Shown here piece after piece: positions 1 to 54,124 of a DNA stretch of 64,000 bases (its first letter is position 1; each line of letters begins with the position of its first letter). The stretch covers positions 1 through 64,000 of the forward strand of contig JANDJZ010000133.1 in the NCBI GenBank assembly GCA_027943245.1. Direction: 5' to 3'. The notes below the pieces were generated by a model that worked only from the letters and a program-made list of their open reading frames with translations, had not been told where the DNA came from and did not search any database. Both the position numbers and the translations under genes were made by a program. Source of the DNA: Acanthamoeba sp. SK_2022b (Eukaryota; Discosea; Longamoebia; Acanthamoebidae).

Positions 1-3000
1 AGGTCGACCCCTACACTCATCGCGATCGCTTCGGCGGCGCGTCGCCACTGCCGCCCACCGGCGACTCGGCCCGAGCGTCCCGCGACACGGAGCGGCCCGA
101 GCGCTCCGGCTGCAGCGGAGGAGAGGCGCCGCCGCGAGGCCGCGATCGCCCAACCGACTACCACCCTCACCACCGGTACGCCATTCTCGTCAGTACACGG
201 CTTTGGGGCTGGCGGGGAGATCCGAGGCTCACGGCCTGTGTGGTGGTGCAGCGACGACGTCCTTTCGGGTCCCGAGCTCGAGGCGGCGTCAGGCCTCCAT
301 CGGTCCGGTTCACCGACGACGCTGGCGGGCCAAACCTCGACGCCGACCTTCGCGACGGCGAGCGTGACACGAGATGGTGACGATCTACGGGCGTCGTCAT
401 CACCGCCGCCTCCAGCTTCGCCGCCCATCTCCGAGAAGGAGAGAGAGAAGAGATCTTCTTTCTTTTCCTCTCCTGTCGTCCCCTCGACGCTCGAGGGCGA
501 GGGCTCCGCTGTCGCCACTAGCCTTTCCACGCCCTCGACCTTCTCTCCGTCTCCATCTTTCCCTCCTTACTCGCCGGCACAGGCACGTGTCCCTCCGGTT
601 GTTGTTATGGGTCATCTTTATTTATTTATTTATTTATTCAATCTTTTGTTTTGTTTTTGGATCCTGCGTGCGACGGTGACAGCAGGCATCGGAGTTGTCT
701 GCGGGAGCACAGCAGAACGCCGCGCCCGCGTCAGCATCGTCGGCCTACCCGATGCCGACCTCGCCGCTGCCCGGCGTTCAGTCGCCACCGCTCTACGCCC
801 ACTCATCGCAGGTTGGCGCCCCGTGGACATCGGAGGGCGGCGACAATCAAATCGAGGACCTCAAGGAGGGCGAGGTACCTGACTTTTTCCTCCCCTGTGT
901 GTGCGAGTGCGAGTCGCGCGACCTAAAAGCTAATCAACGTCGCGGCGTGCGCGGACTCAACCCAACGCAGGAGTACCTGCTGACCACGCTCTACATCAAG
1001 AACCTGGCCTACCAGGTCACGGACGAGGACATCAAGCTCAAGCTCGACTCTTTGGAGTGCAAGGAGGGCCTCAAGGCCATCCGATGTATCACCGACAAAT
1101 TGCAGGGACACTTCACCGGGTACGCGTGATCGCCTCTCCGACAGTCCAACTCGTCGGACTAGTAAGAAAACAGTTTAATTCAATTGCGTTTGTTTTGCTG
1201 CTAGTGAGGCGTTCGTGGAGTATGACTCGGTGGAATTGGCCGCTCGAGCCTTGGACAAGCTCAAAGGTCGGCGCATGCTCGGTCGGCGGATGAAGATCAG
1301 CTACGCCAAGTCCAAGAAGAAGACCCCCCAGCCCGCCTTCACCGGAGAACGAGAAGGTGCACATAGGAGTTAATTTAATTTTTTTGTCGATTCTTTCCGC
1401 CCAACCCACGCTCAATCCTCCATTCATTGACTGATTGCTCTCTCCGGCCCTCCTTCCCCAACAGTCAAGGAGGAGAAGCGTCCCAAGTATCCGGGTTGCA
1501 AGACGATCTTCATCGCCAAGCTCGAAGACGGAATGACGGACGCCACGCTCAAGGAGATCTTTGGAGCGTTCGGCGAGATCCAGCGCGTCCACCGCCTGTT
1601 CGATGCCAACACCAAGAAGTTCAAGGGATGCGCCTTCATATGCTACTCGATACCCGAGGAGGCCGACAATGCCGTTCGACAGATGGACGGCGTTCGACTT
1701 TTTGGCAAAGGTGAGGCTCCTCATTTTGTTCGAACCTCTTTCCTCCCTGTAGGGCTGTGCTGATCTTGGGGGTCTCTCCTCCCCCGTTTGCTGTGCGGCC
1801 AGGTCGCTTCATTGACGTGAATTTTGCCGACAAGCCGGAACCGCACTCGGTCGGAACCACGCCGGGCTTGGCAGGGCACGCGCCCTACCCGTCGCCAACG
1901 GGCCTCAGCTTCGGCGGAGGCCAGGGCGGCATCCCGCTCTCGCCGCCCTTCTCGCCCTCGTTCCAGGGGGTGCCGCTTTCGCCACTCCACTCGTCCGCCT
2001 CGCTGAGCGGCAGCTTCTCCTACTCGCCTTCCGTCTCGCAATTGTCGCCGTCGCTGCTGCCATCTTCCTCGCCGCTCCTGAACGGAGCGACGCCCACTGC
2101 GCCACCTCATTGGGCCTCCAACCTCGAGCCGGAGACGCAGCGTGAGCCGAGCGCCAACGAGGAAGGTGACCACAGGCCGAGTTCCAGTGACCACATGACG
2201 ATTTCTTCGCTGCCCTTGTCCACGCTCGCGTCGACACCTTCGTTGACGACGCAAAATGGCCCTACCCCGGCCACTGCCCCCGCCTCGCCTGCCCTAGAGC
2301 CGCCGCCGCAGCAGCAACAGATGCGCCAACCAAGTGCCCAAGCCGTGTCTGCCAGCGCCGAAGGCCAGACGGCGGCGGCCAGCAGAACACCAGCAGCGAA
2401 TCAGAACCAGCAAATGCTGGCCATTACCCCGGACCGGCCAAGTGCCGCCATGGAGAGCGCCGACAAGGTAAAGGAGGAGGCGCAGGTCAAAGGGAAGTGG
2501 GGTGCTATGCCCCTCAAGTACCGAATCCTGAAGAGCTTCGGGATTCCGACCAAGGAGGACCGGAGGGACGAGCCCGCAAAAAAGGAGGAGTGCACCGACG
2601 CAGCGGCGTCGGCTGCCGTGGCGAGGAGACAGAGGGAGGAAGACGAGGAGCGGGTGCGGAAGCAGCGGCGCATGGAGGTGGAGCGGAACGATAAGATCGA
2701 GGCCGGCCTGGCCCAGGCCCGCGAACGCGAGCGCGAGCGAAGGGAAAGGGAGGACGAGCTGGAGCTGCTGCGAGCCAGGCGTGGCGCCCTCGCGATCAAG
2801 CGGAGGCGGCCCAGCGAAGACGCCGGCGGCAGCAGCGCGATCGGTCTGCGCACGCGGAAAGAGGAAAACAGGCCGCGGGGCAAAAGGCAGAAGATGGGAA
2901 GCGAAGACGACGACGACGAGGACGACGACGAGAACGACGAGCGCGATGGCGACCACATAGAGGGCCCCACCAGTGCGATGACGCGGCAGCCGCCGACGCA

Positions 3001-5608
3001 GAAGAAGAAACAGCGAAGGGTGGTGATGGTCGACGATCATGAGGACCCCGGGGAACCAGGAAATGAGGAGGAGATACGAGCGCGAATGGAGCTCATCATC
3101 AACAAGTACGACGCCATGAAGGACAAGAACACCGCCGTGGCGTTCCTCCTCAACGTCATCCGCAACTCGAACCGGTACGGCCTGTGTGTGATGGATTGAA
3201 CAAACAAACGAACGAACGAACGAACGAGAGCCCCGTGCTTGAGGGGCGACACTGTCTCTGACGACCGCCCAACTCGTGCAGGACCAAGATTGAGGTGGGC
3301 ACGGCGTGGCGGCATCCTCCCGAGTATGCCGATATCTACGGCGAGCTGGGCATGATCAAGTTGCCTGTCGTCAACGTGCGCAATTTTCTTTCACATGTGC
3401 CCTTCTTCCGATCCGTCAGGGAGTTCTCATTACTGAGACTTTGTTGGCGTGCGTGTATGCGTGAAGGGGCGCTACCACATGTGGCAGCTGCCGCGCGAGG
3501 GCTCGGTGAGGCGGGCGTACCTCGACTCACTGAAGCCGGCCGAGACCAAGGAGAAGAAGAAGCGCGGAAAGAAGCGGAAGGAAGAGAAGATGCGCGAGGA
3601 AGAGGAGGAGCGCCGCCGCAGGATGGAAGAGGCCGCCGCGGCCCGCGCTGCATCTGCAGCCAAGCGCGCCCTCGACAAGAAAGCCGCCGCTGTCGCTGAG
3701 GCGACTGCCAGGAAGGACGCCCTCGCCGCTCCGGTTGCACATCAGCCGCCGCCCAAGAAAATGAAGCGCGAGATGCCAACCACCATCAAGGAACAGAAGC
3801 AGCAGCTCCCCGTCGAGCAGCGATCCAAGGACCAGGCCATGACGGCCGCCGTCGTCAGGGAGGAGAGCAAGCCCAGTCTGCACTCCCTTGCCAGTCTCTG
3901 CTCGGCGGACACCGTCCTGCCACCCACTCCAGCCGGCAATGCCGACTGCACAGTCGGACTGACCAGTGGCAAGCCGACTGTGGCGGATCAGAAGGCAAGC
4001 ATCAGCCTCTCTGCCGACGTAGGCCAGCCACCGGCGACAGAGAAAGCTTCAGCCGCGCCCAAGCCGCTAAAGAAGCAGCCCTTGCCTCAGCCTCAGCCTC
4101 TGCGCCAGCACCAGGAGACGAGCAAGCAGTCGCCTGAGGTGGAGAAGGACAACCCGCCTCCGTCTCGACCTGAACCTCAGCAGACGGAGAAGGGGGAGGA
4201 GACGAGCAAGCCACAGGAGGCGCTTAAGGCCACCAAGCTCTCCGAGGAGGAGTCGACCGACCCTCATCAAGAGAAGAGCAGCACCATCACCGCCGCTGCC
4301 AGCAGCAGCCAGTCCAAGGAGAGAGACGAGAGCCAGGCAAAGGCACCGGAGCCGACCGCAGAGGCGAAGAAGCAGCAGGACGAGCTCCCGGAACCGTCGA
4401 TGAAGCCCAGCAAGCCTGAGGAGAAGGATCAGGTCGAGAAGAGCGAGCCGACCTCCGAGAGGAAGGAGGAAGAGGAGGAGGCACCGAAGGAGAAGCAGGC
4501 CGAAAAGCTCCGGGAAGAGATTGTGCCGAGCCGAGTGGGTGAACCGGCAGCGCCGGCGCAGAAGTGCAAGCCAGAGGAAGAGGAGAAGTCAAGCCCGCCG
4601 CTTGAAAAGGAGCAACCCGCCAGCAGCGAGCCAGTGCCGGAGGAAGCGGCCAACACCACGTGTGCGGCAGCCAGCAGCAAACCGGAGGTGGAGGTCAATG
4701 GCAAGAAGAGGAAGACGCCAGCTGAGCCAGGGGAGGAAGAGGAGGAGCGGCGGAAGAGTGTGTCGAGCAAATCCGAGAAGCGAACGAAGCAGCGCGCCGC
4801 GACCGGCAGCAAGAAATCGTCGGGCTCTGATGACGACGAAGAGAAGAGCGATCCACCTCAGCCAACACGTCGAAGGCGTGCCCGCGGGACCGCTTCGGCT
4901 TCGCCGACGTCGAGCTCGGGCGCGGGCAAACCCGTCGATGGACCACCGGAGGAGCTGCTGCGAGTGCTGCAGCGCGAGGCCCTAGGACTGCGTAAGCGGA
5001 CGGGCGGGAGCGGCAGCCGTGTCGAAAAGGCGTCCTTCCTCGAGGAGATGCGCGAGCGGCGAAAGGAGCGCAACCGTGAGCGAATCAAGCGGGAGCGTGA
5101 AGAGGAGCTGCAGCGCGAGAAGGAGCGACGAAAGCGAAAGCGAGCAGAGAGGGAGCGGGAGAGGAGGAAGGAAAAGAAGGAAAAGGAGGAGAGGGAGAGA
5201 AGGGAGAGGAAGAAGAGAAGAAGGGAGACAAAGAGAGAAAGCGAGGCAGAGGAGAAAGAAAAGAGCGAAAGGGAAGCGGAGGAGGAGGACGACGACGAGG
5301 AGGAGGAGAGTAGGGATCGGATGCCGCGGGAAATCAGCCTGCAGAGCCGACGAACGGGAAGGCACCGGCTCGAAGCCGCCAAGACTGATGTCAGCGAGCG
5401 GAAGGCGAAGGAGCAGGCACGCAAGAAGACTGCGCGACTAGCCAAGGAGAAGAAAAATGGGGAGGAGGAGGAGGAGGAGGAACTGGAGGAGTCCTCTACT
5501 TCATCGTCTTCTGATGATGACGACGACGACGATCACGACGCGGAGGCCGACGAAGGCGAGGACGCTGAAGAGGAATACATGGCCGAGGAAGACGAGGCGG
5601 AGGACTGA
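1..5608 (+). CDS. Two-RRM RNA-binding protein with long charged C-terminal tail (5' partial)
   Basis: Coding begins before the window; base 3 onward is open, and exons join across GT-AG introns near 175-251, 608-683, 876-925, 1119-1209, 1357-1464, 1711-1801, 3175-3281 and 3377-3468. RRM1 (about 975-1320) has RNP2 'LYIKNL' and, after splicing, RNP1 'FTGEAFVEY'. RRM2 (about 1490-1840) has 'IFIAKL' and 'KGCAFICY'. The spacing resembles nucleolin- or CELF-type proteins that bind single-stranded RNA. A Ser/Pro-rich stretch follows, then Arg/Glu-rich coiled coil, then an unassigned ordered-looking module (about 3080-3540, 'NTAVAFLLNVI', 'YHMWQLPREGS'), then some 700 residues of alternating Lys/Glu, acidic and Ser-rich sequence ending in a Glu/Asp tail. 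Nuclear RNA processing or chromatin work is an inference. The RRMs are solid; the first exons and the single-gene reading across 3175-3470 are less certain. Confidence 0.75.
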
Positions 5609-5753
5609 TGCTTCACTCACCAGAAGCAAAAATAGCAATAAATCGACGCCTATCGACATTTAATCATGTGCATTTTGGCGCCAAAAACGCAACACACAAC
5701 GCAACCAGTGCAATCCGCGGCAAAAGAAGAAGTTGAGGAAAGCAGCGAGGAGG

Positions 5754-8700
5754 ATGGAGGGGCAAGGCCAAACCTTCGCTGTGCCCTTTTCGCCAGCATC
5801 TAACAAAGAAAACAAAAATCCCAACATCTTCAAGTACCTGCAGGATGAGGACTGTGCGCCAAGGTATGGATCCAAAATGCATTTCCTCCTAAAGGCCTTA
5901 TTCCTGAAGCTTTCTCGAACAGGAAGGGCATGCCGAAGCTTAGTGCCCAGAAGGTTTGGGGGTACGCAGTGTAAAAAAGTTTGAATTTGTTTTATATATA
6001 AAACAGCGCTAATCAAGTTTCCATACAGGAGCGATGACGATACCATTACCCTCACGGGGAATATGCTCTTCACTGCAACGAGCAAGCTCAGCGGAGCTGA
6101 GGGTTTAAACACGCCTTCTCGAGGTTTGTCTGCCTCGTTCTGGGCCCACTGCATTATGCATCGCAACTGATCTGCATTCTGCCTCTTAACTCCAGGAGAT
6201 GAAGAAGTCACCCTATCGAATACTTCGGTGATGCCTGAATTTGCTGTCCTTAACGCCCTTCAGAAACAAGGCTTGCTCGATCGAAGTAGGCTGGGCACAT
6301 CATCCGACTCTACTACGCAGGATGATCTCACCGGGCACAGCTCTCCCACGATGGCAGTCTTGAACAAGCTGCTCCAGCAAGGGTTGCTCGACAGCACCGG
6401 TGCGTGACTGGTTCAAGTTCTTACCGTCTTTGGCCCGCCAGTCTTATCTCGTTTCTCTTTCTTGCGGTGAGCACAGGGCTACCCGAGGACCGAACGGATA
6501 CCATCAGCACTCAAGGTGGCCTGGAGAAGTCTATCTTGAACAAGCTGCTCCGGCAGGGCCTGCTTGACAACAGCACTGGTGCGTGACTGTCCTGCATTAA
6601 CGATGTCTTTGGCTCGCCAGTCTTACTGGTTTCCTTTCTCACGCACGTAGGCTCATCCGAGGATCGAACATGCACCATCAGCACGCAAGGTGGCCTGGAG
6701 AAGTCTATCTTGAACAAGCTGCTCCAGCAGGGGTTGCTCGACACCACTGGTACACAGAATACATATTCGACTTCCGCCCTATCATTGTAGGCTCAGTACT
6801 GCTCTCTTGTTGATCTCGACACAGACGAAACAGTCACCTTCACTGGACCGATGACCGGTGCTTTACTCAGTGTTCTGCAGAGAAAGGGGCTTCTTGACGC
6901 CTCTGGCAGCGGAAGAATCACCGGTAGGCAGCTTGCTTTTGTGTTCGGAGGTGTTGGTACTTACATAACCAGTGCAGACGATGACACGATCACCGTTACC
7001 GACACCTTTCCGGAAGCAGCGATGCTACACGTACTGCAACAGCAAGGCCTACTTGATACACCTGCTGGGTCGTGCAAGAAAGGTGAGGGTCCCGCTTGAT
7101 CTGACACATTATTGCTCTGGCCATGTTCTCATCATCTGTTCAGATCGCGATGACACTATCGCAGTCACAGAGACTCTGCCCGACGCAGCGCTCCTCTCCG
7201 CTCTTCAGGAGCACGGTTTATTCGACATTTCGTCAGTGGGCCAGTCAGCTCAGGGTGCGTTCCACGCTACACTGCCCGTGGACAAACCCGGTGAAGCTTA
7301 CTCCAAATCAAAACGCAGATGAAACGATGATCAACACGGAGACTCTGCCCGAGGCTGCTCTTCTGACCGTTCTTCAAAAACAGGGCTTCTTTGATACCTC
7401 GTCAAGGCTATCCTCACATACAGGTACATGCCGGAATTGAGCACATGGATCTTAGTGTCAAACTAACTTAGTTGTCTTGGTTCAGCATCCAACGACTCGA
7501 TGACCATAACGCAGACTCTGCCCGATGTTGCTCTCCTCAGCGCACTGCAGAGTCAGGGTCTTCTTGACGCGACTCCACTTCGCACACAATGCACCGACAA
7601 CATTGTGGTTAATGAAGCTCGGCCAGGCATGCCGGTTCTTACTGTATCGCGCGGTGCACTCAACACAAGCGTGATTAGTTATGGCAAAGGTACGCACCAT
7701 TATTGGTCGACCATCTGGCGTCTTTGTGGCGCTTACAGGCGGTTCTTTAGATGGTACTTCCAGCGATGAAGACACTGGAGTGATCACTAGTTCGTTCCCT
7801 GAAGCGGCCCTTCTTGACGCGCTAGACCAACGCGGATTGCTCGATACTACCTATGACCATTCTGCTTCACTAGGTGAGTCTGCTTAGATAGGTGACTTGC
7901 TCGCTCCTCTTTTAGTAGTACTATTCTCACACGCGTGCTTCAGCTGAAACAACCGTGCTGGGCACATTGGCAAGACATGGTCTCCTCAACACTTCTTCGC
8001 GAACCACGGTCTCGGGTAATAGGGTCTTTGTCTTCTCCCGATGGTTAACTGTTCCTTAAAGTTAAAGCCTTCATCAACAAACACAGTGAGCGCTAGCGCG
8101 GGCACCCCACAGGCCCTCGACGCAAGTATGGACGCAGTGGATGACTTCGACACTTCAGAAGTTCTGGCTTCTGATATTTCAAGAATCGCCACCGAGTCCG
8201 CCGACGAGGCTGGCCTTGAAGAAGCATCGTCAGAGGGTGAGTCGTGCGAGGAGTTGACTGAGTTGATTCGCACTGCGCTTGCGCCCAGTGACCCACAAGG
8301 AGACGATCAAGTGAGCGATTTCGAAAGCTCGATCGACGAAGGCACTGAGGAAAAGCCACAGAACCAAACGGTGGAATGCAGACCTGCCTGTGATAAGGGT
8401 TCCATCACTCTCGCGCTGGAGGAGTCAGACATCGAGCAGGACGTCGAAGAAGGAGAGAAGTGGCGGGAGGGCGTCGCCAAGCTCCACATCTCGTCAAGCT
8501 TCGGAGAGCCTAGCTTCATCGCCAAGGCCTCGACACGCAAGAGCGAGAGCTGTTATTCGTACAGCTCGGACTTCGTGCCCATGTTCGACATCAGCTTAGT
8601 CTCGGCTGCCACGGAAACCGACAACGAAGTGATTCACGACGTTTCTGCCACGATCCTTATCGAAGACGACGAAGTAGTACGAACAGAAGCCCCTTCGGAG

Positions 8701-11700
8701 GACGAGAAGCGCCATTTAACAGCTACTCTCCTGATCGAGGAAGTCCACGAACCCTCTGGTACTCTGCCAGAGAGCAGGGGCATCTCCTGCGCGCCGGCGA
8801 CCGAGGACGGCTTCGGAGCGATGACGGTGGACAAGCTGCGACGAGAGCTGAAGCAAAGAGGGCTCAACACGAGGGGAAAGAAGGCTGAACTGATAGATCG
8901 TCTACGCTTGCTGAGCACGGAAATGTCGACTCAGGTGATCACGGCCATTTCGGAGGAGACCAGCGCCGATAACGCCAAGGCAACTGAAGAAGAGGCGAGC
9001 TTGGCCATGAGCGAGGTCGCTAACGAGAACGAAGAAGAGAAGGACGACCTCGAGAGCACGAAAGGAGCGAAGGAGGACAGCATAGAAAGCGAAGCAGGCG
9101 AGACAGCACTGGAGGTGACTACAATGACCGTCCGAGAACTCCGACGCGAGTTGAAAGGTAGAGGCTTGGACGTGCGAGGAAAGAAGGATGCACTCATCGA
9201 GAGATTGGAGCGAGCTATCACCAACGGTACTGAAGAAGTGCGCCACGATGGAGAGAGCGAAATGGATGAGGGAGCGAGCGCGACACAAGAAGACGGGAGC
9301 GATGAGGGCGAGGGGATAGGAAACGTCGAGGTGGGAGCGATGCTCACCAGCTTCGAGCAGGAACAAGCCACGACACTTGCCAACGAAGCTTCCAGCAATC
9401 TGCACGAAATCGATTCCTTGGCGGAGATGAAGGTCGTCAAGCTGCGAGCCGAACTAAAGAAAAGGAGCCTGTCAACTCGGGGCCGCAAGCCTGAGCTCGT
9501 CGACCGTTTGCGAGCAGCTCTTACTGACCCAAACATGCCTGACTCAAGCGACCTGGGTGAGGGACCCAATGGTGCGGACAGCGCAGACGTGCCGCCTGTC
9601 GAACTCGATCCTGCGAGCGAATCGGAGCCAGGGGAGGAGCAGACAGAGGGAAGATCAAAGGAAGAGGAGAAGGAGGAGGAGGAAGAAGAAAGTGAAGCGA
9701 ACGAAGCGAACGCCGAAGCGGCTGCCTGCGCACAATCTCGACCGGACGAAGTTGCAGTTAGACAGGGCGAGGCCGACGATGAAGGCGAAGATGAAGAGGA
9801 GACTCAGCCGCTGGAAGCGCAGGTTGACGAGCTGGTGGAGGAACATGACGGAGAGGAGAGACCGAGGGTCGAGAGAAAGGAGCAGCCAAAGGGAGCGCAT
9901 GCGGAGTATGAGGCCTCAGTGGAAGATGACATCGGTGGCATGAATGCGCATGAGGCGAATGACGCAGGGCTCGAGAATCAGCTGTCGAGCGGCCCTGAGT
10001 TGCATGTCGAGCAGCTGACGGAAGAGCCACTGGATGAACTTAGCCGTTGCGAGGACGAGAGAGCTTCCGAAAGTAGTGCTCAAGAGGAAGCGACTGTCGA
10101 AGCGGAACTAGAGGTCGAGGGTCGAGATTCGGACGAGGCCGGCGCAAGGATCGAGGACCTGACGAGAATGACTGTGGCCAAGCTGCGGCAGGAGATGAAG
10201 AAGCGTGGGCTCTCCTCCACGGGGAGGAAGCTCGACCTTATCAAGCGACTGCGCGAGCATGAGCACAAGAGCCGAGCAGAGTCGAGTGTCGAGAAGCCGT
10301 CAACCGCGGCCGAGGAAGGAGTCGCCGGAACGAGCGTGCGGGTGAGCGAGCCCAGTCCCAAGCCTCATCGATCGCTGGCTCTGGTGACAACGTCCAAGAC
10401 TCCAAGAGGGCGAAGCGACGATCTAGAACACGAGCAGCTCGTCGTCGAGGTCAAGGAAGACAGCTTCGAGGACGGTGCCGAGCAACTTCAGGACGTCCCT
10501 CATAGACATGCTGAGGTCTCCGCAGTTGTCAGCTTCGTGGCGACCGCCGGGCTTTCTAGGGATCCTGATGATGTATCAGTGATGGATATATCTGCGATCG
10601 CTCCCTTCAGGGCATCGGCGAGGCCCAGCAGCGCGTGCGAGGAGGGCCGTGCGTACAGCTTCATGGCCGAGCGTAGCCACTGCCACAAGGCCGAGAAGCT
10701 TTCTGTGTCGATGCTCGACGTGAGCGGGATTGTACGTGGTGAGGAGAACGACGAGGCAGCCGGTGCCGAAATCACCTTCGCCAGCGACAGCAACACCAGC
10801 GGACGTGCAGCCAACGCCTCGAGTTTCAAGAGACCCCAAGACCGGACACCGAGGTCGAGCCTCTCCGCGCCTACTTCTCAGGGTATCGCCACTACGCCTT
10901 CCCCGCCTACCTGGTCGCCCACGCAGACGCCACCGCCTGGCTCTGGACTGCGTAGTCGGTCGCTCGGCCCTCCGCCCGGGCCTGAACTCTCATCTGTTTT
11001 CGCGAGCCGATCGCCTGGTGGTGGCCCTAGCGCCAAGTCGCCAAAACGAATGGGCGCAGCAGCGGCACCAGCACAGAGACCACCGCCGTTGTTTGAAGAA
11101 GCCCCGGTCTCCGCTCGTCGATCGCTCTCTTTGTCCTCGCCTGTAGCCACGCCGGTAAGCACGATACGCCGAACGCCCGCGGTGTCTACAATGCGACGCA
11201 GACAAACCAGCGCGTTCTGGCCCGAACTGCCGGCTCTAGATAGGTGAGCTGCTGTCCGTTTTATCTGGCAGTTTGCTGTGTCGCTTAATTAATTGACAAG
11301 GCTCCTTTCCTCTCGTGCGCAGCCTCGACGACGAAGTGGCCGAGCAGGTTACGGGTCCCACCGCGGACTGCCATTGGGTTCTGCCCGGTCGTCTGCTCAT
11401 CGGCGAGTATCCAGGCTCCCGAACCAACACGGCGATCGACGTCGAGTGTGTTACTAAGTTGGTGCAAGCAGGTACGCTTCGCTTTTCTGCCCAACTTGCA
11501 TTCACTACCAACATGCGGCGCGCTGATCAATGCGTACAGGCGTGTGCACATTCATCAATCTGCAGACCAACCCCTCGCAGTACAAGATGTTGGGGCTCAA
11601 CTTTTGGTCCTACAAGCAGACATGTCGTGAGTTGGTGGCCCAACGATCTCTTCGTCCCACCCGTCCGCTCCAGTTTATACATTTCCCCATGGCCGGTGAG

Positions 11701-21991: not shown

Positions 21992-23009
21992 CGAAGGATC
22001 CAGCGCATCTCATCGTGAGCGCGCTTCCACACAGCAAGCTGGTGCCCGCCATACGACACCCGATCGCCAGGGAGGCTGCGCCCACGCTGGCCGCATTCCG
22101 TAAGACCTACTTTGACCACCGACTGCCCGTTGTCATCACAGGTGGCGCCCCATTCCCTCTTCTCTGCCTCTCCGCCTTTCTCACCCATACTTCGGAATGC
22201 GTGCAGGGGCGACGACCGGCTGGAGGGCTCTGGACAAGTGGCGCGACCTGGCCCACCTGGAGAGGGAGTACGGGCACCGCACGGTTCCGGTGGAGATCGG
22301 CCGACCGTTGGACGACGACGAGCGCTCGTCGCTGGCCAAGGACAACAACACGGTGTGGAAGGAGAGCGCGCTCACGCTATCCGAGTTCATCGCTGCCTAT
22401 CTCCTCCCCAGTAGCCGACACGACCACCAGCGAAGCCGCCCCCGCAACGACAGCGACAAAGACAGCGATGCTGACGTCGGGCTGCAGTTCGATCGCATCG
22501 GATACTTGGCCCAGCACGCCCTCATCGAGCAGCTGCCGTCGCTGCAGGACGACTTTGCGCCGCCACACTACTGCACGCTGGGCGAGCTGTCCAACATCAA
22601 CACCTGGCTGGGCACGTCGGGCACCGTGACCTCACTCCACTTTGACAGCTACGACAACTTCCTCACCCAGGTGGCCGGCTACAAGTACGTCCGCCTCTAC
22701 CACCCGAGCCAGACGCCCTTCCTCTACCGCGACTCCCCTTCATCGTCTGTCCGTGGAGACGCGGTCGACAAAAACGAGGAAGAGGGAAAGGAGGCGATGG
22801 CGATCTCGGCCCAGAGCGCCAAGGCACAGGGCAACTTCAGTGCGGTGGTCAACATCGAGAACCCCGATTGGGCGCGATACCCGCTGCTGCGCGAGGCGGC
22901 CTACACTGAGACCATCCTCGGTCCCGGCGAGATGCTCTTCATCCCGCAGAACTGCTGGCACTACGTGCGCTCCCTCACCACCTCCTTCTCGCTCAACTTT
23001 TGGTTCTGA
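21011..23009 (+). CDS. KDM8: JMJD5/KDM8-like JmjC oxygenase
   Basis: The start at 21011 gives an acidic N terminus, then a helical domain ('WREAFVFAQLFIALALI', 'HLDMAIIMGGPADL') matching the N-terminal region of animal JMJD5. The catalytic half has 'GYLAQHALIEQLP', 'NINTWLGTSGTVTSLHFDSYDNFL', and 'GPGEMLFIPQNCWHYVRSL' ending 'FSLNFWF'. Fe(II) ligands are visible: His at 22638 and Asp at 22644 (HFD) and the distal His at 22959. JMJD5 is a 2-oxoglutarate-dependent hydroxylase or protease-like enzyme acting on arginyl residues and histone tails in the nucleus. The halves are joined by an intron holding a (TG)n tract (21898-21989). Its donor is uncertain: a GTGCC at about 21833 keeps phase 0, and unspliced message would stop at 21862. 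Confidence 0.85.
21898..21989 (+). repeat. (GTGCGT)n/(GT)n microsatellite in JmjC intron
   Basis: GTGTGC-type units followed by pure GT. Alternating purine-pyrimidine over about 90 bases could adopt Z-DNA. It lies in the intron separating the two halves of the JmjC gene. Confidence 0.9.
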
Positions 23010-23117: not shown

Positions 23118-24695
23118 CTAGAAGGCGTAGGGGTTGGGCGGAACGGCGTAGGACGGGAGGAACTGCGAGGCGGTGTCGTCCTCCAGCACGGGAGTGTCGG
23201 GCACCTCGGGCTCGGGGCCCCGCATGCGGATGATGTCCACGGTCGAGTTGAGGATGAGGAAGTTGCGCGCGATCGGCATCAGCCCGCCGCGGATCTCGAG
23301 CGTCCGCAGCAGACCGGCGTGCTTGTCCTCCTGCTGCTTGAGCCAGACGCGGGCCTCGCCCACCTTGCCATGGTCCCTGTAGGCAGACGATGGCATCGAT
23401 GGGTCAATCCCAGTCCACACACACACACACACACGTGCGCGGTAGAGGGGCGAAAGGACGCGTGACGTACCAGCTACTGCTGTAGCTGGACTCGGCGAGA
23501 TCGAGGTAGGCGAGCGCGAGGGCGGTGGCGAAGAGGCCCTGGAGGAGCTCATAGGTGTCGATGCCCAGCGACTTGGCGCCGGTCATCACCAGCTTGTCCT
23601 GGACGCTCTCGAGCGACACGCCTGGGACGCCGAGCAGTCCAATTGAGTGATCACAAGACACAAAACGCGGCAGTGGGGAGAGAGCGGCGTACCCATGATG
23701 TCGGCCAACTCGGGCGTGAGCTCCCAGCAGACGCCGGGCTTGAAGCTCTTGCTTCGCTTCTGCAGCGCCAGCACTGACGCCCACTTGTTGGGGGACTCCA
23801 CCGAAGGACCTGCGTGAGCAGGCACACAAGAAGGTGATGCAATGAGCGGTGAGCGTGACTTGAAAAAAGTAAAAATTATAAGGTAACAATCAACGAACCG
23901 CGTAGCCTGAGCACGAGGTGCAAGGTGGACTCCTTCTGGATGTTGAAGTCCTGCAGATCGCGGCCGTCCTCCAGTTGCTTGCCGGCAAAGATCATCCTCA
24001 TCTGGTCGGGCGGAATGCCTGCCGTGTTGCGTGTCGTGTCATGTCACGTTGGTTTGGGGTTGCGTGCGCAGCGTAGCGGTAAGGAGCAAACAGAAGATTA
24101 GTCACAGGCCACTCACCCTCCTTGTCCTGGATGCGCTGCTTGATGGTATCGACGCTGTCGCCGGGATTCATCTCGATGGTGATCGTCTTGCCGGTCAGGG
24201 TCCTCACGAATAGCTGACCGCCGCCTCCGCCTCCTCCTCCGCCTCCTCCTCCGCCTCCGCCTCCGCCTCCACTGCGCGAAGCTGGGGCAAGCTGCTCCTC
24301 TGAATAGAGTGAACGAGAGAGAGAGAGAGAGAGGATAAGCGAGAAGAGAGGTCAGCCGATTCCACCAAAAGAGGTATCGCTCAGCTCAGCTGCGCGCATT
24401 ACGCGAGCGAGCAGCGTACCGCCGCTGCACCATTCGTCATCTTCGTCGGCATCGTCATCACTGTCGATTACTGCAGCGCGTCGACGCAGTAAGCACGACG
24501 TGAGCCCTGCCAACAGATCCGGCTCTGCCTTGGGCTTACGCTCTTCCTCTTCGCTCGCCTTGCGCAGCTGAAGGCCGGCGGAGATCTCGTTGAGCAGGCT
24601 GCTCCTGTTCGACACCTTCTCCTTCTCGTCGCGGATATGCGGCAGCTGCTGCCGCTGTCGCTGTAGCTGCTGCGGCTGCTGTTGCTGTTTCGGGA

Positions 24696-24734
<39 letters not shown>

Positions 24735-25584
24735 TCTTCATAGGCAGGGCCGACTTCAGCTGGGCAGTTTGGCTCGAACCGTAGGCAAACGAATACTTGA
24801 ACGAGTCCTTGGGCTGCGGAGCGCGGGCTGCGGGCGGCGGGGCCATGGGCATAGGCATGACGGGCGCACGCAGGGGCGCCATGGGCGGGGGCGGGGCTCC
24901 GTAGCCCGAGGGCGGGGCCGAGTAGGCGGGGGGCGGGGGCAGTGCGGAGAAGCAGGCGAACGGATCGTCTCCCGGCGGAGGCGGCGGGGCTGAGCAGGCG
25001 GGGGGCAGGGGCTGTGCGTTGTAGGAGAAGCAGGCGAACGGATCGTCTCTCGGCGGAGGCGGCGGGGGCATGTCGCAGTCCTGCTCCATCATGAAGGGGT
25101 CTGGAAATTTGGTGGAGGGCGAGAGCGATGGGTGAGCATGCGCAGATAAAGGTTGAGGGAAGAGCGAGAACAAGAGCGCGTGAGGGGTGGGCCGGTCGCG
25201 CACGTACTTGAGGCGTATGAGATATTGCTCGGGGCAGCGGAACTCATCCTGCTGGACATCTTGTCCTTCTTCTCCACAACGACCATCTTCTTCTTCCTAT
25301 TCTTCTTCGCCTTGTCCTTCCTGACTTCGGGCTGGACGCTGCGCGACCTTTCCATGGAGGGGACGTACGAAGCCTCGTCGCCAAACAGGTCGCAGCCCAT
25401 GACATCCTCATCCTCTTCGGCCTCCTCCTTGTACTTCTCCTCTCGGTAACGCGGTGCGGCGGCGGCGGCGGCGGCGGCAGGAGCAGGTGACGGTGTGACT
25501 GGCGTACTCCACTGCAACCCCAAGCGTCAGCCATACGCACAGTAGCAACGTCTCTCTCTCTCTCTCTCTCTCTATACACACGCA

Positions 25585-25654
<70 letters not shown>

Positions 25655-26992
25655 CGGTCATACACAGGGGGAAGGGGCTACCTTAACAGAGTCAAAGGCC
25701 AGCTTTGTGCTGGCTTTCTTCTTTTCGACTAATAATCCTTGCTTGGGCTTGTCCCTGGCCATTCGACTCCTCGATATCTCCTTCATGGGCAATTCCGCCG
25801 CCTTCTCGATGCTGCTGCTGCTGCTCGTCGAAGTCAGCGTCATCGCGGGCATGTGCACTTCCCGCCTGCGCTCCTCCTTCTTGTCCTTCTCCTTCTCCTT
25901 CTCCATTTTTTTGTCCTCCCTTGCGCCGCTCGAGGAGGACCACGACGATGAGGATGAAGACGAATATGCGGCTGGCTTGCGTGGCAAAGACCTCGCGGCT
26001 GCCTGGCCCTCGGTGTCGATGCCAAAGAAGTCGTAATCCAGAAGCGATCGGCTGTTGGGAGATGGGGCGCCCTGCTCCAAACAAATCGCACACGCACACA
26101 GCCGGGTAAGGCGTTGTTCCTACGGCCGCGTACTCGCCGCGCAATAGCGAATGCGCGCGTACCTTGCCAGGCGCGCTGGGCTTGGCACCTGCGTACGACT
26201 GCGGCTTCAGGACGCTCTTCGACTCTGCCAGCACCTCCGCTTCAAGCATCTCCAGCTCCCGCTCCAGCTCTTCCTCCTCCTGCGACAACGCCAAGAGAGA
26301 GAGAGAGAGAGCCAGTGAGTGGGTGGTTCCGTAGTGCGCGCGCAGCCACGCAATGTGACAGACCTGAAGGCTGATGCTTAGGGGGAGGCTCAAGGCCTCG
26401 CTCACTTCAGTCTGCTCATTGAGCTCCGCGCATTGGTCCAAGAGCCACATAACATCGTCCTCCTGTCCGACTTCGATGGGGATACGCCCGTCAGACGCCC
26501 TCCTGTGAGTGCGGCTTCTCCGAGGGCTCAAGGGGCTGTTCATGGCCTCCTCGTCGGAGACAGAACCATCGCTCTCTGAATCAGAGGAGGCGTCGGACTC
26601 CCAGTCGGGAATGGCCGAGGCCAGGCCGAGCTGGGCGAGTTCGTCCGCGTATGCCTCCAGAGCGGGATCTCCGCTGCTCAGGGCACCACGCGGCAGTTCG
26701 GCCACCAGGGCACGCGCTTGGTTCTCGTCCTCCAGAATCTGTGAGCCGACCGCACGCATTGGCTCTCTGCGATCAGAGACGAGAAAGAGGGAGTGTAGGA
26801 CGGGGGAGGGGGACGGCCTTACCCGCGCGTGGACCGCGGCTTGCTTCACGGCCAAGCGAATGCGCACGGGATCCGATGGAGCCAGAGATTCCTTGTGCGC
26901 CAGCTGCGCAGCTGCTGCAAGGCTCTGCAGCGCCTTCTCACCTGCAGACGTTTAGGAGCACAAATCAGTACTGCTTGTAGGAGTGGGAACTC

Positions 26993-27045
<53 letters not shown>

Positions 27046-30000
27046 GTACCAAGCTGCTTCCGCTTGAGGCCACTGGCAAGTTCCGCTAGCGTGAGCAGGT
27101 ACTCACCGCGCAGGATCTCAAGGCGACGCTTGGACTGGTCGGTAGAGGCGTGCGGCAAGGCGTGCTTCTCCACGGCGTCGAGGGCCTCCTGCGCCACCTT
27201 GCCGAGGCCCTTCTCCAGCTGCGTGCGGTTCTTTTTATGCTGCGCCAGCTTGGCCCATACGCCGTTTGCCTTGTCCGCCTCCTCAACCTCCCTCACCCCG
27301 CGCAGCTGTTCAAGCTGCGGGCCGAGCTGTGAACACACCAAGAGCGCACATCAGCACGCGCACAGAGCTATGCGGTCATGAGGGCCCTTTGGAGCCAACA
27401 AGTGTTCAAGTGTACTCACCTTGTGAGCGTAGGCTTCGGAGAAGAGCTGGGCCTCCTCCTCGGTCATGTCCACGTTCATGGTCGCGATGGCGCGCACCGC
27501 CTGCGCCAGCTCTGTTCAACAGCGTAAGGGCATCCGATCGTCAGCGCAGTTATGCGAGAGCGCGGGAAAGGAGGGAGTCACCGTCAAAGTTCTGCTGGGC
27601 GTGGGCGGCCTTGGCGTCCTCGAGACACTCCTTTCGGCTCTTGAGCGTTACGACGGACTCCTCCTTCTTCTCCTCCTGCCAGCCGACGTAGGGCAGCGAG
27701 TCCACGGTCTCCTTCTTCACCAGCTCCTCTATCGACGGGCCCTTGACCTGCTGCTCTCCCGCTTCTCTCTTCTCGATCGCCACTGTTCTCCCAACGAAGG
27801 AAAGCGATGAGCCAATCAAGATAGGGGAGAGACAGAGAGAGATTGGGGGGAGCATGGACAAGTACCGAAGGAGGTGAACTGGGTTACGAGGGAATACTGT
27901 ATAGAGAGCTTGATGATCTCCTCCTTCCTCTTGCGCTTGATGATCTCATGAATGAGAGCGTCCTTGTCGTAGTTACCGTCCTCCCTGTAGCGTAGAATGT
28001 GCATGGTGCGGGGCGAGTGCGTTGGTCAATGCGAAGTGAAGAAGCGCAAACGAAGTGGCTCGGTACCAGTCGCGAATCATGGCCCTGGCGGTAAGCGTAT
28101 GGAGGATCTTGCCTCGGGTGATGCTCAGATCGTGGGTACTGACGAGGTTGCTGACCTCCGCCTCGCCGTTTTTGGCCTGTTTCAAAAAAACGCATACATC
28201 GGTCAGCGGTTCAGCCCACACGACACACGACACACGACACACGACACACGACACACGACACACGACACACGACACACGACACACGACACACGACACACGA
28301 CACACGACACACGACACACGACACACGACACACGACACACGACACATATCTGGCTTTCAAGTCCTACTCACCTTGAGAGTGGCAGCGGTACAGTAGTCGA
28401 CGAAACCGTATACAATCTGCCGCTCGCCAAAGAAGAGGGAGGTGAGCTGCGCCGGGGCCTGCGTGACCGAGCCTCTGTCGGAGATGTTCCACGCCACGCT
28501 GATCTCGGACAGCGCTGGGAGAAAAGAAGCGTAAGCGATCACCAAGGCCAGCGGCATTCCATTTCCGAGGTCGATGTGAAGGTTTACCTGGCTGGAGGGC
28601 GCGACGGAACTGGCGGTCGATCTTGGAGCGCGTGGGCAGCTTGTTCGCGGGCATGAACTCGGCCACGCCGCCGCCCACACGGGCCAGGGAGCGGACCATG
28701 TGGCGTGAGCAGTTGCTTCCGAATCCGAACGAGAACAGGCGCGTGTGCGAAGCGTTCTGCTTGATTAGCTCGATCAACGAATCCTGGTACAGGTGGCACA
28801 CGCAGACATCGACGGTTAACGAGTGATGACTGTTATAGGCTCGTATTAGGACGAGGTGCGATTGCCAAACCTGATTGGTGGGGTGGCCATCCGAGAAGAC
28901 AAAGATGTTTCGCGGAGTGCGTTCCTCATGCGCAAGCAGGAAGAGCGTGCGGAGGGGCTGCCACAGCTCCGTGCCGCCAAAGTTGGGGCGCATCTTGTCG
29001 ACGTAGTTCTTGGCCGTCGCAAGAGCCGACGGGTCGGCCGTGGGCTTGCTATCGACAAACAGGCGCTCGTACGTGGAGCCAAACGATACGATGTTGAACG
29101 TTGCTGGCGAAGTTGCAGGAATACATCAGTGTTTGTTCATGATTGGAGGCGCGACTGGCAGACGTACCGTCCATCTTGGCGAGTCGCTCAAGACAGGCCA
29201 GCAGGCAACGCTTCATGTCATCGAACGGTTCACCCTTCATCGACGAGGAGCGATCCACCAGGAAGATGAACTCGTGGTCGTCGGGAGCTATTGTGTTGCA
29301 ACGCGCAGGCACCGCTTTAGGCAAAGTCGTGAGGAAAACAGATAGGGCAGCTTAGGCATACCCTCGCCCTCGTACTGGAAGTCGGGGTAGAAGGCGACCA
29401 TCGCTGCGTACTTGCCCTTCTCGGACTCGTCTTCTTCAACCTAGAACCACATGACTGGCGGCGTGAGCTCCTATGTATCACACGCAGCGCGCTCGACATG
29501 AAGGAAGGGCGATCGCACCCACATGCGGGGCTCGTAGGGCTTCTCCAAGCCCACCAGCAGAGTAAAGGGGCGGCCCTCAAGCGATGTATCGGGCTTTAGC
29601 TGGACCGTGGCCTTGGTCTGGGTCTGCTTGATCAGTAGCTTGCCGGGATGGGAGGAGCTCTTGAGCCGCACGATGGGGTAGGGCATGTCGATCGACACCT
29701 GCAGGTCGAGAGGCAGCCCGCCCGAGGCCTCGCCCTCGACGTTGACCGTCTTCGTAACGGTTTGGGTGACGTCCTTCAGCGCCTTGTCCCGCTGAGGCGG
29801 CGACACGCTGGCGGGCAGCACGAAGGCAATGTTGGGGCCTTCAACGCTCAGCTCCGTGACGTAGGTGATCTTGATCAACACCGACGAATTGGGCGGCTGG
29901 GATACGTAGGCAGGTTGTCAGTTGAGCTGGGTTGGCGAGAGTGCGAGTCGTGATATGTACCAGGTTGCCGACGCTGACGGTGAAGACATCAGGCTTTTCT

Positions 30001-33000
30001 TCGTCCATGAGGTAGGCGCCATGGCCAGCCGCGACGGCCTCCTTGTACTCCTTGTGCGCCTTCTCCTTCTCCTTGACTTCACCGACGATGTGCTTGCCGT
30101 TGATGAAGGCCTCGAAGCCGCACACAGCCGCCATCTCGTCAAGCGGACACACGTACTTGGCTTCGATGGGCACTTGGCTCGAGTTGTGGTAATGCTGTGC
30201 AGGACGTACGCCAAAATACGGAGACCCCTATCAACGCTACAGGCTACATCACAAGCTTGATATGGGTAATGTACCTGCATGACTACCACCTTGGCCACCA
30301 TATCCAGCAGGGTGGCTCGTACGTGCACCGACTTCAATGGAACCGCCTCGCCTCCTGGTCATTATAGCACGCAATAAGACACCGGGGAGAACCACAGCAG
30401 GAACACTGACGCTCGAGTAGCGAGCACCTTTGGACATCAGCCCCGCCTCTTGGTCCTGCTCGTCTCCCTTGTCCTCGCCCGAATTGGATTCGGCAGGACT
30501 GAGGGTGTCGACCACGTCGAAATCTTCGGCGGGCACGAGGAGGCTCGCCTGCGACACGACCTGCTTCTGGCTGTAGAGAGACTGACGAGGCAAGGGCTGG
30601 CGGCTGTCCTCCTGGTTGGAGAACTCGACGAGGTAGGACATGTGCTGCTGCGCCGTCCTGTAAATCACGTACTCATCGTCCACAAAGTCTGTCTGCTGAC
30701 CTTCGGTCGACCTCACGCCGTGCACGCTATCGTAGCCCTTGGGCGGCTCCGTAAGCGTGGTGTCGATCCGTGCGATGTCGGCTGACTGCATAGTTTTTTA
30801 TATAAAGAAAATTGAATATAATTTCATTTCGAATCTCATTGTCATCAAAGGGGGCAGGACCAACGTACTTTGCCGAGCGCTACATTACAGACGAGCATCA
30901 TGCGGGTGCCCTGCTGGCCGGGCGTGGTGTACTGGGCGGCGGTCGAAGAGCAGTCGCCAAAGTAGATGCCGGCACCCAACATGCCCGCGTCGGTCCTGGT
31001 GCCGCCTGTCTGCGTGACGATGTGCGGGAGAAGCACGCCTCTACTGAGTATGCCCACCCAGTTACTGATACGCGAGCCATGGAACAACAAACGCTGCAGA
31101 GGCGGCCATATCACACATCACAACACCAAGCCAGAGATAAGTCAGAGCTTAAGCGTTGTTGACGCCAATCAGATCGCAGAGCGCACGCACCTGATTGTCC
31201 ATCTGCTTGGTGAACTGCTGGCGCTCGACTTCCCTTCTCACCGTGTAGACATTCCTGACCTCCAGCTTGGAGCCCTTGATCTGGGTGGAGAGAACCTGCT
31301 CCCGGATCTTCTGGTACTCTTCGGCATCCGAAGCCAGGGCGTTGATCTGGCACCGCAGGGCGCGGTACTTCATGTCCACCTCGGCAGTGGCCGTGTCTCC
31401 GGTGATCTCGTCCACAGTAAGCATGTCCTTGAGAAGCTGGACCAGTTCCTGCTTCTCTTCCAGCACCGACGCATTGTCGACTGTCGGTTGCTGATTCTGA
31501 GGTATGGCCGAGTAGAATTCCTGATTATTGGTGCAATGATGTCAGCGAGGAAGCAATCCTGGCACGCTCACAGGCGAGAAGGGATCACCTTGGAGAGGGC
31601 ACGGATCTCCGCCATCTGCTCCGGGGAGGGGTTGTGCTCGGTGTGCTTCAGGGATTGATAGATCTGCATGAGGAGGGACTCGCCCTTTTCAACCTGCTGC
31701 AGCGTTAAGGTCCCAATGGGGCTGCGCCGTTGAAGGCAGGCCAAAGGAGGTGAGCATCCCATGTGACGAGCGACTAGAATGGTCATTCAGGGGGAGATGA
31801 GAGAGAGAGAAGAGAGCTCACCTCTGAAGTGCCGATGTTAGCTTGTGGGTGGCCTCCGAGTACAAGTACTCGATCAGTTTTTGTACGGGCTCGGAGAGTG
31901 CAGAGGGCCCTTGCATAACTCGGTTGCCCTGCACCTTGGCCTATGTTTCCATGTCGAGGATAATGGTAAGCTCGGGGGCAGTCGTAAGCTTGCTCTGCCT
32001 GGCGCTCAGTATCCACTAAGTAATTGATTGGTTTACCTTATCCGAACCGATTCTGCTGGAGGCGAGCAGGTTGACGCGCTTGTAGCCCTGTCCACTCATG
32101 ATAGTATACAGCTGGGAGTAGGTGCTCTCCGCGTCCTACATACGCATGCGCGAATGTGCTGGGCGATGAGTGCCCCAACCCAGAACACCACGACGCGCGG
32201 GAGGTCTGTTGTTGCGTTTGGTACCTGCAGGTTGCCCAGGTACCGGACCTCCTTGGTGCCCGCCTCGGCGTCTGCGTCGAGATCGCTCACGCTGCCTGCA
32301 TGGGTGAATATTCTGTACATGCGCCGCTTGCGGGGCGGCTCGGCAACGTGAAGCTCCACGTCGAAGTAGCTGTTCCCTTTCTGCGACAGCAGGACACATC
32401 TCGTATGTCAGACATAGAGCTTCGGCCACGACCCCACCCATTGCCATGTACCAGGAGCACGTCGGTCTTGGCAATCTCGTAGTTATCTTCGGGCCACTGC
32501 GGCGCCTCGCGGTCAGTGGTCCTGTAGGGCCACACGCGCACGGTCGGTGGCGCACGAGCGACGGCCTTCTTGCGCGCCATGACCTTAACTGTGCTCAGTC
32601 CAGCCGTCTTCGCTCCCCCTGCAGGCGCGCCATCTCTGAGGATGAGCTAAACAGCCAACAGCGCGAAACAGAGCTGTACTCAGATCAACAGCGCGAGGTA
32701 GGCGGTACCGTCGCCGCTGCTGGCATTGCCGCCGGCCTGGAGGAGATAGGGCTTGGCCGAGACCAGGCCGCCCGCCTCGGCGCAGTCCTTAAGGAAGTCG
32801 AGCGTGACCACGGGAATGCCGTGGCGGGTGGCCGCCTGCAGCTTGGACGAATAGCTCTTCTCCAGAATGTCGTCGCTCGCCACCAGGTACGACGTCTACC
32901 CCACCCCGCGCGTATTTGGCACCGTGAACTGGGGATAAGGGTGAGGGATAGGATAGGACGAGGTACCTTCCTGTTGATCATGTAGGATACCCGTCCGCCA

Positions 33001-33107
33001 TTGTCTGCGATTAGGCGGTTAATCTCTTGCTTCTTTTTGAAGGGCACCGCGAGGCCCAACTCGAGGGCGAACGTGAGGTCCTTCAAACAGCCTGTTGCGG
33101 CGGCCAT
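23118..33107 (-). CDS. Vault-PARP-like (PARP4-type) giant protein with 14-3-3-like and ubiquitin domains
   Basis: About 30 exons, each joining in frame. In protein order: BRCT (33107-32685; start [11 protein letters not shown]); WGR-like region (32580-32040, '[17 protein letters not shown]'); PARP regulatory helices (32016-31150); catalytic domain with 'LLFHGSR' (31085), '[16 protein letters not shown]' and '[11 protein letters not shown]' (30660), so the His-Tyr-Glu triad is complete; VIT (30330-29480); vWA with MIDAS 'DRSSSM' (29255); a divergent 14-3-3-like domain (27800-26560); a long Ser/Pro/Gln/charged linker with three DPF motifs and WH2-like '[13 protein letters not shown]' (24600); a ubiquitin domain (24215-23898); and a C terminus with '[13 protein letters not shown]' and '[21 protein letters not shown]' like the MVP-binding end of PARP4. 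It should transfer ADP-ribose and may sit in vault particles. The order BRCT-PARP-VIT-vWA-MVP-binding is PARP4's; the insertions are unusual. The (CA)n and CACACGA arrays lie in its introns. Confidence 0.82.
23898..24215 (-). other. Ubiquitin domain inside the vault-PARP gene
   Basis: Two exons encode a full ubiquitin fold: '[20 protein letters not shown]', '[20 protein letters not shown]', '[11 protein letters not shown]'. Lys equivalents of K6, K11, K48 and K63 appear present. The fold runs straight into the next exon as '...RLRGPSVES', so the second glycine of the usual GG tail is replaced by proline, which should resist deubiquitinase cleavage. A poly-Gly spacer precedes it. Confidence 0.85.
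24690..24742 (-). repeat. Poly-Gln codon run
   Basis: CAG/CAA repeats on the minus strand encode a dozen glutamines in the vault-PARP linker, followed by further Gln/Pro/Arg-rich sequence. Confidence 0.85.
25550..25650. repeat. (TC)n then (CA)n microsatellite in vault-PARP intron
   Basis: A TC tract (about 25550-25573) is followed by an essentially pure CA tract (25586-25650). On the coding strand it reads as a GT run close to the 5' splice site of an intron. Confidence 0.9.
26560..27800 (-). other. 14-3-3-like domain exons of the vault-PARP gene
   Basis: Exons give the nine-helix 14-3-3 order: '[20 protein letters not shown]', '[18 protein letters not shown]', '[18 protein letters not shown]', '[16 protein letters not shown]', '[14 protein letters not shown]', then an acidic tail. 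Compare 14-3-3 'LLSVAYKNV', 'GDYYRYLAE', 'HPIRLGLALN'. The Arg-Tyr pair of 'YYRYLAE' is replaced ('YLLTLAE'), as are the Lys and Arg of the first signature, so the phosphopeptide pocket looks dismantled. A (GT)n intron (26994-27044) splits it. Confidence 0.7.
26994..27044 (+). repeat. (GT)n microsatellite in vault-PARP intron
   Basis: Pure GT dinucleotides for about 50 bases, within an intron inside the 14-3-3-like domain. Confidence 0.9.
28217..28346. repeat. CACACGA minisatellite in vault-PARP intron
   Basis: About eighteen uninterrupted copies of a 7-base unit (CACACGA). It is an ordinary tandem repeat with no spacers, so not a CRISPR array. Its perfection suggests recent expansion. Confidence 0.92.
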
Positions 33108-53880: not shown

Positions 53881-54124
53881 AACCATCCCGAAACTACTTG
53901 CCTGTTCTCACCGGTGTTCCAAAGATGCCAGTGAAGCGCATAGGTCCTCTAAATGGTGATGACACCAATATTTCCACTCCACTGTAAGGCTGCACTCTAC
54001 TAAAGCCGTTACCACTTCTTCCTTATCCACTTTTCCCTCCATCTCTGTGATAGCAGATTCCCCTTCATTTGTGCGCACACTTCGCACGATCTGTCCCGTG
54101 CCTGCGTGGGCTGCAGACCAGCAG

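Follow-up and report, generated by a model that had tools for sequence, protein, structure and literature searches.

This report describes one gene in a window of 64,000 nucleotides from Acanthamoeba sp. SK_2022b (GenBank assembly GCA_027943245.1, contig JANDJZ010000133.1, positions 1 to 64,000 of the forward strand). "The window" is that whole stretch. The gene lies on the minus strand, at 23118..33107, and its predicted product is a vault PARP (PARP4) that also carries a 14-3-3 domain, a WH2-central-acidic (WCA) module and a ubiquitin domain. The best explanation, to which we give about an even chance, is a PARP4 orthologue whose variable region was built into an actin-assembly arm. Its most likely function would be that of a vault-tethered Arp2/3 activator.

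The gene model was built by hand. It starts with an ATG at 33107 and stops with a TAG ending at 23118, with 34 exons in one open frame: a coding sequence of 6993 bases, 2330 residues and no internal stop. There are 33 introns, 64-195 bases long and all GT-AG. Exon edges were set by eye from frame and homology and then checked by script, which means that the agreement with GT-AG is in part built into the model. Base composition supports it independently. GC at third codon positions is 0.69-0.95 in 34 of 34 exons and 0.81 overall, and intron GC is 0.54.

Along the protein, the domains are in order BRCT, WGR-like, PARP, VIT, vWA, 14-3-3, a linker with the WCA module, ubiquitin, and a PARP4-type vault-binding end. 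An earlier first-pass annotation of the window had claimed a vault PARP with 14-3-3, WH2 and ubiquitin in one polypeptide, within 23118-33107 on the minus strand. The model fits these limits exactly, and at the level of sequence the 34-exon frame, Pfam and the alignments bear the claim out. That annotation also pointed to three regions to be found by searching the spliced protein. Two of these, 14-3-3 and ubiquitin, score over their cut-offs, while the PARP4 C terminus is found weakly (E 0.019).

The N-terminal part of the protein is like human PARP4, a clade 5 PARP, in having BRCT, WGR-like, helical, ART, VIT and vWA domains in the same order. All coordinates that follow are on the minus strand unless noted, and all Pfam values in this paragraph are from the whole protein and over the cut-offs. 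BRCT (aa 1-109, exons 1-2, 32709..33107) has a Pfam E-value of 5.4e-10 and aligns to human PARP4. The WGR-like region (aa about 110-289, exons 3-6, 31822..32618) is not called by Pfam on the whole protein, and is identified by alignment of residues 161-547 to PARP1 580-975. The PARP helical regulatory and ART catalytic domains (aa about 261-578, exons 6-10, 30428..31940; PARP_reg 1.4e-12, PARP 5e-34) align to human PARP4 and have an intact catalytic H-Y-E triad (H449, Y488, E557). Next come VIT and a following ITIH-like region (aa 639-869, exons 11-13, 29519..30354; VIT 1.5e-38, and also matched in human PARP4) and vWA (aa 896-1078, exons 15-17, 28588..29287; VWA_3 2.9e-25). The two added folds, ubiquitin (4.9e-26) and 14-3-3 (1.3e-21), are called in the same run.

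In PDB searches human PARP4 is the best match both of residues 1-574 (E 9e-72) and of residues 639-1300 (E 1e-152), the latter aligned over aa 640-1243. It ends in a post-vWA motif of some 40 residues, common to human PARP4 and to a paralogue on another contig of this genome, C521. In the same search inter-alpha-trypsin chain H4 is matched too, and its best-scoring stretch stops at about residue 1219.

That motif is also what ties the core to the region added after it. Exon 21 (27582..27782) holds both the PARP4-type post-vWA motif, which begins VAIEKRE, and the start of the 14-3-3 domain, as judged from the human PARP4 alignment, Pfam and the paralogue. Because this one exon holds both, a break after the vWA exons is unlikely. 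A gene break at 27.8-28.3 kb, the outcome that the first-pass annotation named as refuting, was rejected as far as sequence can decide, since exon 21 joins both sides, and the continuous exon series of that annotation holds here at sequence level.

There could still be two or more genes: a PARP4 that stops once its vWA or its 14-3-3 part is complete, and another gene downstream, in exon 29, starting at the Met codons of aa 1831-1832 and carrying WCA, ubiquitin and the vault-binding INT end. Exon 29 does open with these Met codons, and exon 28, if left unspliced, reaches a stop at 25089, just beyond the intron (open frame 25089..25526). The one-protein model is also a prediction from genomic DNA. 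We consider this division very unlikely, however. Besides the shared exon 21, the ubiquitin has no Met1 and the INT end has no start codon at its beginning, coding composition holds in 34 of 34 exons, and human PARP4 has its PARP core and INT end in one polypeptide in the same order. Because of this last fact, the parts in between are most simply placed in the same gene. That the locus is a single gene for one polypeptide is, on this evidence, highly probable.

The source genome, used for all own-genome searches, is 45 Mb in 1129 contigs. A DNA search of it with 23118-27800 gave no second copy of the gene: the 85 matches are the locus itself and otherwise short ones of at most 131 bases, many over the ubiquitin exons and others in repeat-like stretches.

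The actin-related evidence lies in and just after a disordered-looking linker (24607..26600). The linker has poly-proline (about aa 1838-1923) and poly-Gln, an NPF motif at aa 1828-1830 and DPF motifs at 1847-1849 and 1873-1875. As many as these three in residues 1480-2056 were seen in only 1 of 5000 shuffles, although the DPF pair may have arisen by local duplication, to judge from its appearance. Pfam also matches a 60S acidic ribosomal protein at aa 1726-1769 (8e-07, just above the cut-off). This is on an Ala/Lys/Glu-rich stretch and is probably compositional.

The WCA spans aa 1993-2051 (24606-24430), with the poly-proline upstream. It consists of a WH2 motif (aa 1993-2009, 24556..24606), a short mixed-charge spacer, a central part (aa 2022-2039, 24466..24519) and an acidic part with a tryptophan (aa 2040-2051, 24430..24465). 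In WASP-family proteins the WCA is found at the C terminus. Here it is internal, about 280 residues before the end of the protein, and followed by ubiquitin and INT.

The order of parts is like that of the WASP-family class I nucleation-promoting factors (WASP, WAVE, WASH, WHAMM, WAWH and WAML), which in the text of survey PMC3298513 have a proline-rich region, then WH2, central and acidic parts with a tryptophan. The same text gives the central domain as three large hydrophobics each three residues apart, an Arg/Lys doublet or triplet, and then another large hydrophobic; L2023, L2027, L2031, RRR at 2033-2035 and V2038 fit this. Of the 10 fixed positions in its WH2 pattern, 8 agree and two (N1998 and S2001) differ, and the WH2 linker has the four residues there called usual. 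Unlike these factors, the module is not a VCA at the C terminus, and Pfam calls no WASP-family N-terminal domain in the protein.

Similarity searches point the same way. A 67-aa piece holding the WCA finds ten PDB sequences at E up to 10, and each of the ten either belongs to the WASP family or is a chimera with such a protein. N-WASP is best at 8e-06, a value summed over three WH2 copies, the best single stretch having E 2. For WAVE1 the match takes in all three parts, WH2, central and acidic, at 4.3e-04, or 0.0011 for a single stretch. A 142-aa piece has 20 matches, of which the best 8 belong to the WASP family; the remaining 12, from E 0.012 upwards, do not belong to it. Aligned locally to WAVE1, with the central part included, the sequence scores 89, against a mean of 24.6 for shuffles (s.d. 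4.5, maximum 52), and none of 5000 reaches this score. A pattern for the whole WCA, composed after the sequence was seen, occurs in none of 20000 shuffles of aa 1480-2080, and WH2 alone occurs in 36.

Searching in reverse, with the 57 residues of the human WAVE1 WCA against the genome in six frames, the sole match at E up to 1 is this locus (E 0.0028, 43% identity). Native WASP/WAVE genes were not reported by this search, in which one candidate passed a first look and which was not exhaustive; their modules are probably split or diverged. A possible second WCA in the genome, on contig C629 (E 0.21), was rejected: it holds a stop, and by eye its three forward frames are without WASP-like sequence.

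It is also conceivable that the gene structure is right while the WCA-like stretch is no Arp2/3 activator: it might bind actin monomers and nothing more, or might resemble a WCA merely through low complexity. In that case we would have a vault PARP with a decorated linker. This would agree with the Pfam score for WH2, which is below the cut-off (E 0.088, 13.0 versus 23.1 bits), with the two misfit WH2 positions, with the internal location and with the acidic and basic low-complexity surroundings. It does not account well for central and acidic parts that follow WH2 in the right order and include the tryptophan, for ten of ten PDB matches being WASP-family, or for a WAVE1 score above 5000 of 5000 shuffles. 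The absence of the whole pattern from 20000 linker shuffles speaks against it too, as far as a pattern written after seeing the sequence can. We regard this alternative as unlikely, and a functional WCA as somewhat better than an even bet.

The 14-3-3-like domain precedes the linker (aa about 1252-1478, 26601..27636). Its Pfam alignment covers aa 1259-1447 and profile positions 2-189 of 223, leaving the last helices unmatched. Among the best 60 of 123 PDB matches, the top one is 14-3-3 epsilon (2.7e-26) and none is a PARP4 chain, which sets this part apart from human PARP4; nor does a PARP4 chain appear among the 20 and 10 PDB matches of the WCA pieces. A genome-wide search for the 14-3-3 family gave 15 matches, with the domain of this gene not listed, presumably due to its short exons. 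The spliced protein does match the Pfam family, unlike the unspliced exons in that search.

The phosphopeptide pocket of human 14-3-3 zeta is formed by K49, R56, R127, Y128 and N173. Compared with N-terminal pieces of the genome's own 14-3-3 proteins, K49 is replaced by Ala and R56 by Leu in four of four comparisons. R127 reads Leu and Y128 Thr in all three pieces holding the site, and N173 reads Lys in four of four. Position R60 is retained, V176 reads Ala, and N224 falls in a gap in the three pieces (of three) that hold it. The pieces are from four of the six contigs with matches (C551, C904, C538 and C362); C564, whose match has scores equal to those of C362, and C563 were left out. The K49/R56/R60 entries of C551_C and C904_C were excluded as artefacts, as the landmark AYK recurs in these C-terminal pieces.

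With the pocket residues replaced relative to the genome's own 14-3-3s, phosphopeptide binding by this predicted domain is not supported and was rejected. What the translation retains is the sequence signature of the family, without its known ligand site. The dimer-face positions, L12, A16 and R18 in human 14-3-3 zeta, read A, Q and N in three of three comparisons, and because of this a canonical 14-3-3 dimer is doubtful.

The ubiquitin domain (aa 2082-2157, 23805..24219) has also been changed at the places that matter for its usual chemistry. It sits at the end of an 18-Gly run, the last Gly of which takes the place of Met1 (M1G), and it shares 56 of 76 residues with the polyubiquitin of this genome. 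Its end reads LRLRG-P, Gly76 having become Pro (G76P), which means there is no free diglycine end. L8, I44 and V70, which make up the patch, are retained, as are H68, K48 and K63; K6 and K29 are Arg. A cleavable ubiquitin precursor was considered, and was rejected for the loss of both Met1 and Gly76. Established ubiquitin chemistry is the basis for predicting no cutting or conjugation by known enzymes: because Met1 and Gly76 are absent, with Gly-Pro instead, the domain should be locked, non-conjugable and uncuttable. It may rather be a fixed docking surface with the ubiquitin fold, and if so a natural example of ubiquitin built permanently into another protein, from which it should not be removable.

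Such a domain could be taken as the main point of the added region. Its function would then mostly be ubiquitin-type signalling, with the fixed ubiquitin making the vault a constitutive client of ubiquitin receptors of endocytosis, autophagy or the proteasome, and with actin binding secondary. The retained L8, I44, H68, V70, K48 and K63 and the NPF/DPF cluster suit this proposal, and the title of one paper links major vault protein (MVP) to autophagy avoidance by Listeria (PMC3150275). Yet it names no ubiquitin-binding partners, and it leaves a complete WCA beside a poly-proline region without explanation. We consider it improbable, and prefer the actin-assembly arm.

The first-pass annotation had imagined a hub that links ADP-ribosylation to actin, phospho-like recognition and ubiquitin. 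The actin link is now stronger than claimed, as the WH2 opens a whole WCA, with its central and acidic parts. Phospho-like recognition is not supported, the pocket residues checked having been replaced. For ubiquitin, the domain is indeed there, but without Met1 and Gly76 it would not be a conjugating unit. The complete WCA, the lost 14-3-3 pocket and the ubiquitin lacking both Met1 and Gly76 are three points, all read from the predicted protein, that go beyond that annotation.

The C terminus is a candidate PARP4-type MVP-interacting domain, INT (aa about 2165-2330, 23118..23783), named MVPID for the human protein in the text of PMC10450202. Its place at the end of the protein is the one expected. 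With the last 175 residues, the PDB has a single match at E up to 1, to human PARP4 1585-1636, and a weak one (0.019). A related domain follows a VIT-vWA stretch on contig C862, at 70-78 kb (stretch positions 2648-6530), and matches the vault-binding end of this gene at 3.4e-05 with 33% identity. When the two sequences are made into a profile, human PARP4 is found at 0.0068, and one unrelated sequence is next at 0.7.

As in human PARP4, the vWA is followed by the post-vWA motif and a putative INT-like C terminus, in that order. That the locus encodes a PARP4 (vault PARP) orthologue whose variable region, after the vWA part and before the vault-binding end, has become an actin-assembly arm is, in our judgement, an evenly balanced proposition. 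Presumed partners of such a protein are encoded in the genome: MVP shoulder domains occur at three places, two with identical scores, and the Arp2/3 subunit ARPC4 at one (1e-32).

The C862 stretch has no PARP match in the 8 kb examined, and because of that the vault-binding-end domain may also occur outside PARPs. Just upstream there, on the same strand as the VIT-vWA, frames that look RING- and ankyrin-like were seen by eye.

A mechanism can be sketched. The C terminus would anchor the protein on MVP. The poly-proline and WCA would bind profilin-actin, an actin monomer and the Arp2/3 complex, and so start branched filaments. Fixed ubiquitin and the NPF/DPF motifs would dock endocytic or ubiquitin-reading partners, and the ADP-ribosyltransferase would mark nearby proteins. 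A WCA held by the vault may have no access to Arp2/3 before the cage opens or lets the protein go. The vault cage could silence a nucleator in this way because the INT domain has been used to pack cargo into the vault lumen, as reported in PMC5665922.

Vault-gated actin assembly of this kind is a tentative idea, which we think possible but would not bet on. The same goes for the wider claim that a vault PARP is itself an Arp2/3 nucleation-promoting factor, forming a new WASP-family subfamily, with a cage that holds, shields and releases its nucleator. That ADP-ribosylation and a built-in ubiquitin mark are coupled to branched actin assembly belongs to this reading, and is put forward with equal reserve.

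A number of points weigh against the actin-assembly arm as a whole. The domain order was read in one genome, and the single protein from its DNA. The WH2 is below the Pfam cut-off and departs from the published pattern at two positions, the WCA is not at the C terminus, and the vault-binding end is weakly matched. Finally, the word "actin" is absent from the main text of PMC13100048, on vaults in situ in Dictyostelium, where several PARPs are labelled near MVP.

If true, the reading would tie vaults physically to the actin skeleton. What vaults do, and what PARP4 does in them, are called open questions in the texts of PMC13100048 and PMC4245714. A vault protein with a complete Arp2/3-activating module would offer a concrete and cheap test of whether part of the vault can nucleate branched actin, and whether the cage gates this.

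PARPs like this are not entirely new. The 2014 survey PMC4245714 describes, in its text, PARP4-like proteins with VIT, vWA and 14-3-3 in four amoebae (A. castellanii, Dictyostelium fasciculatum, D. purpureum and Polysphondylium pallidum), two animals (Branchiostoma and sea urchin) and one filasterean, Capsaspora. The gene described here is probably one of that set. The survey adds three more types of clade 5 PARP from A. castellanii, two with ubiquitin-related domains, and actin or actin-binding domains are noted in clade 5 PARPs of A. castellanii and others. The pairing of a vault PARP with 14-3-3 has therefore been published before, and so, broadly, have those with ubiquitin and actin.

The first-pass annotation, in stating that no PARP with this set was known, overlooked these 2014 descriptions of the 14-3-3 fusion and of ubiquitin- and actin-related domains, and is perhaps right about the full set. 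In the text of PMC4245714 the ubiquitin-related domains are in types other than the 14-3-3 type, whereas this gene has both, and a single protein with the full set may thus have gone unseen there. The main text of that survey is without WH2, and in its section 3.1.2 there is no mention of a WCA, of Arp2/3, of a lost pocket or of a locked ubiquitin. Survey PMC3298513, on WASP-family factors, is without any occurrence of "PARP".

In the open-access literature searched, where not every wording was covered, the matches listed contain no WCA module in a PARP and no link between vaults and Arp2/3. Nor do those listed mention loss of the 14-3-3 pocket, or of ubiquitin Met1 and Gly76, in such proteins. 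To our knowledge no other PARP fits the WASP-family definition, and this one would be the first.

The paralogue on C521 (L049 1-5300, with L060) has the same BRCT, WGR-like, PARP, VIT, vWA and post-vWA motif. No match to 14-3-3, WCA, ubiquitin or INT was found in the stretches examined (with a limit of E 0.5 for L049, and of E 0.05 for L060 and L061). Unlike this gene, it has a tail with, by eye, RS, RGG-like GGRGGFS, heptad and FG repeats. The YSPTSPT heptads resemble the tail of RNA polymerase II, and the FG repeats those of nucleoporins. Pfam gave nothing useful on two pieces of this tail.

Some smaller features complete the picture. Introns 18, 23 and 27 of the vault PARP gene (28177-28371, 26942-27049 and 25512-25681) are by eye rich in microsatellites, with a GTGTC-type array in the first and AC and GT/GA runs in the other two. 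Its tail-to-tail neighbour is a Cupin_8/JmjC open frame at 22116-23009 on the plus strand (4e-38), which ends 108 bases from the vault PARP stop codon. Further away in the window, a 1074-aa open frame at 8023-11247 on the plus strand has four SAP-domain stretches. A second, divergent PARP-like catalytic stretch lies at about 53908-55650 on the minus strand; one exon of it has E 8.7e-4, and together with its neighbours it is over the cut-off.

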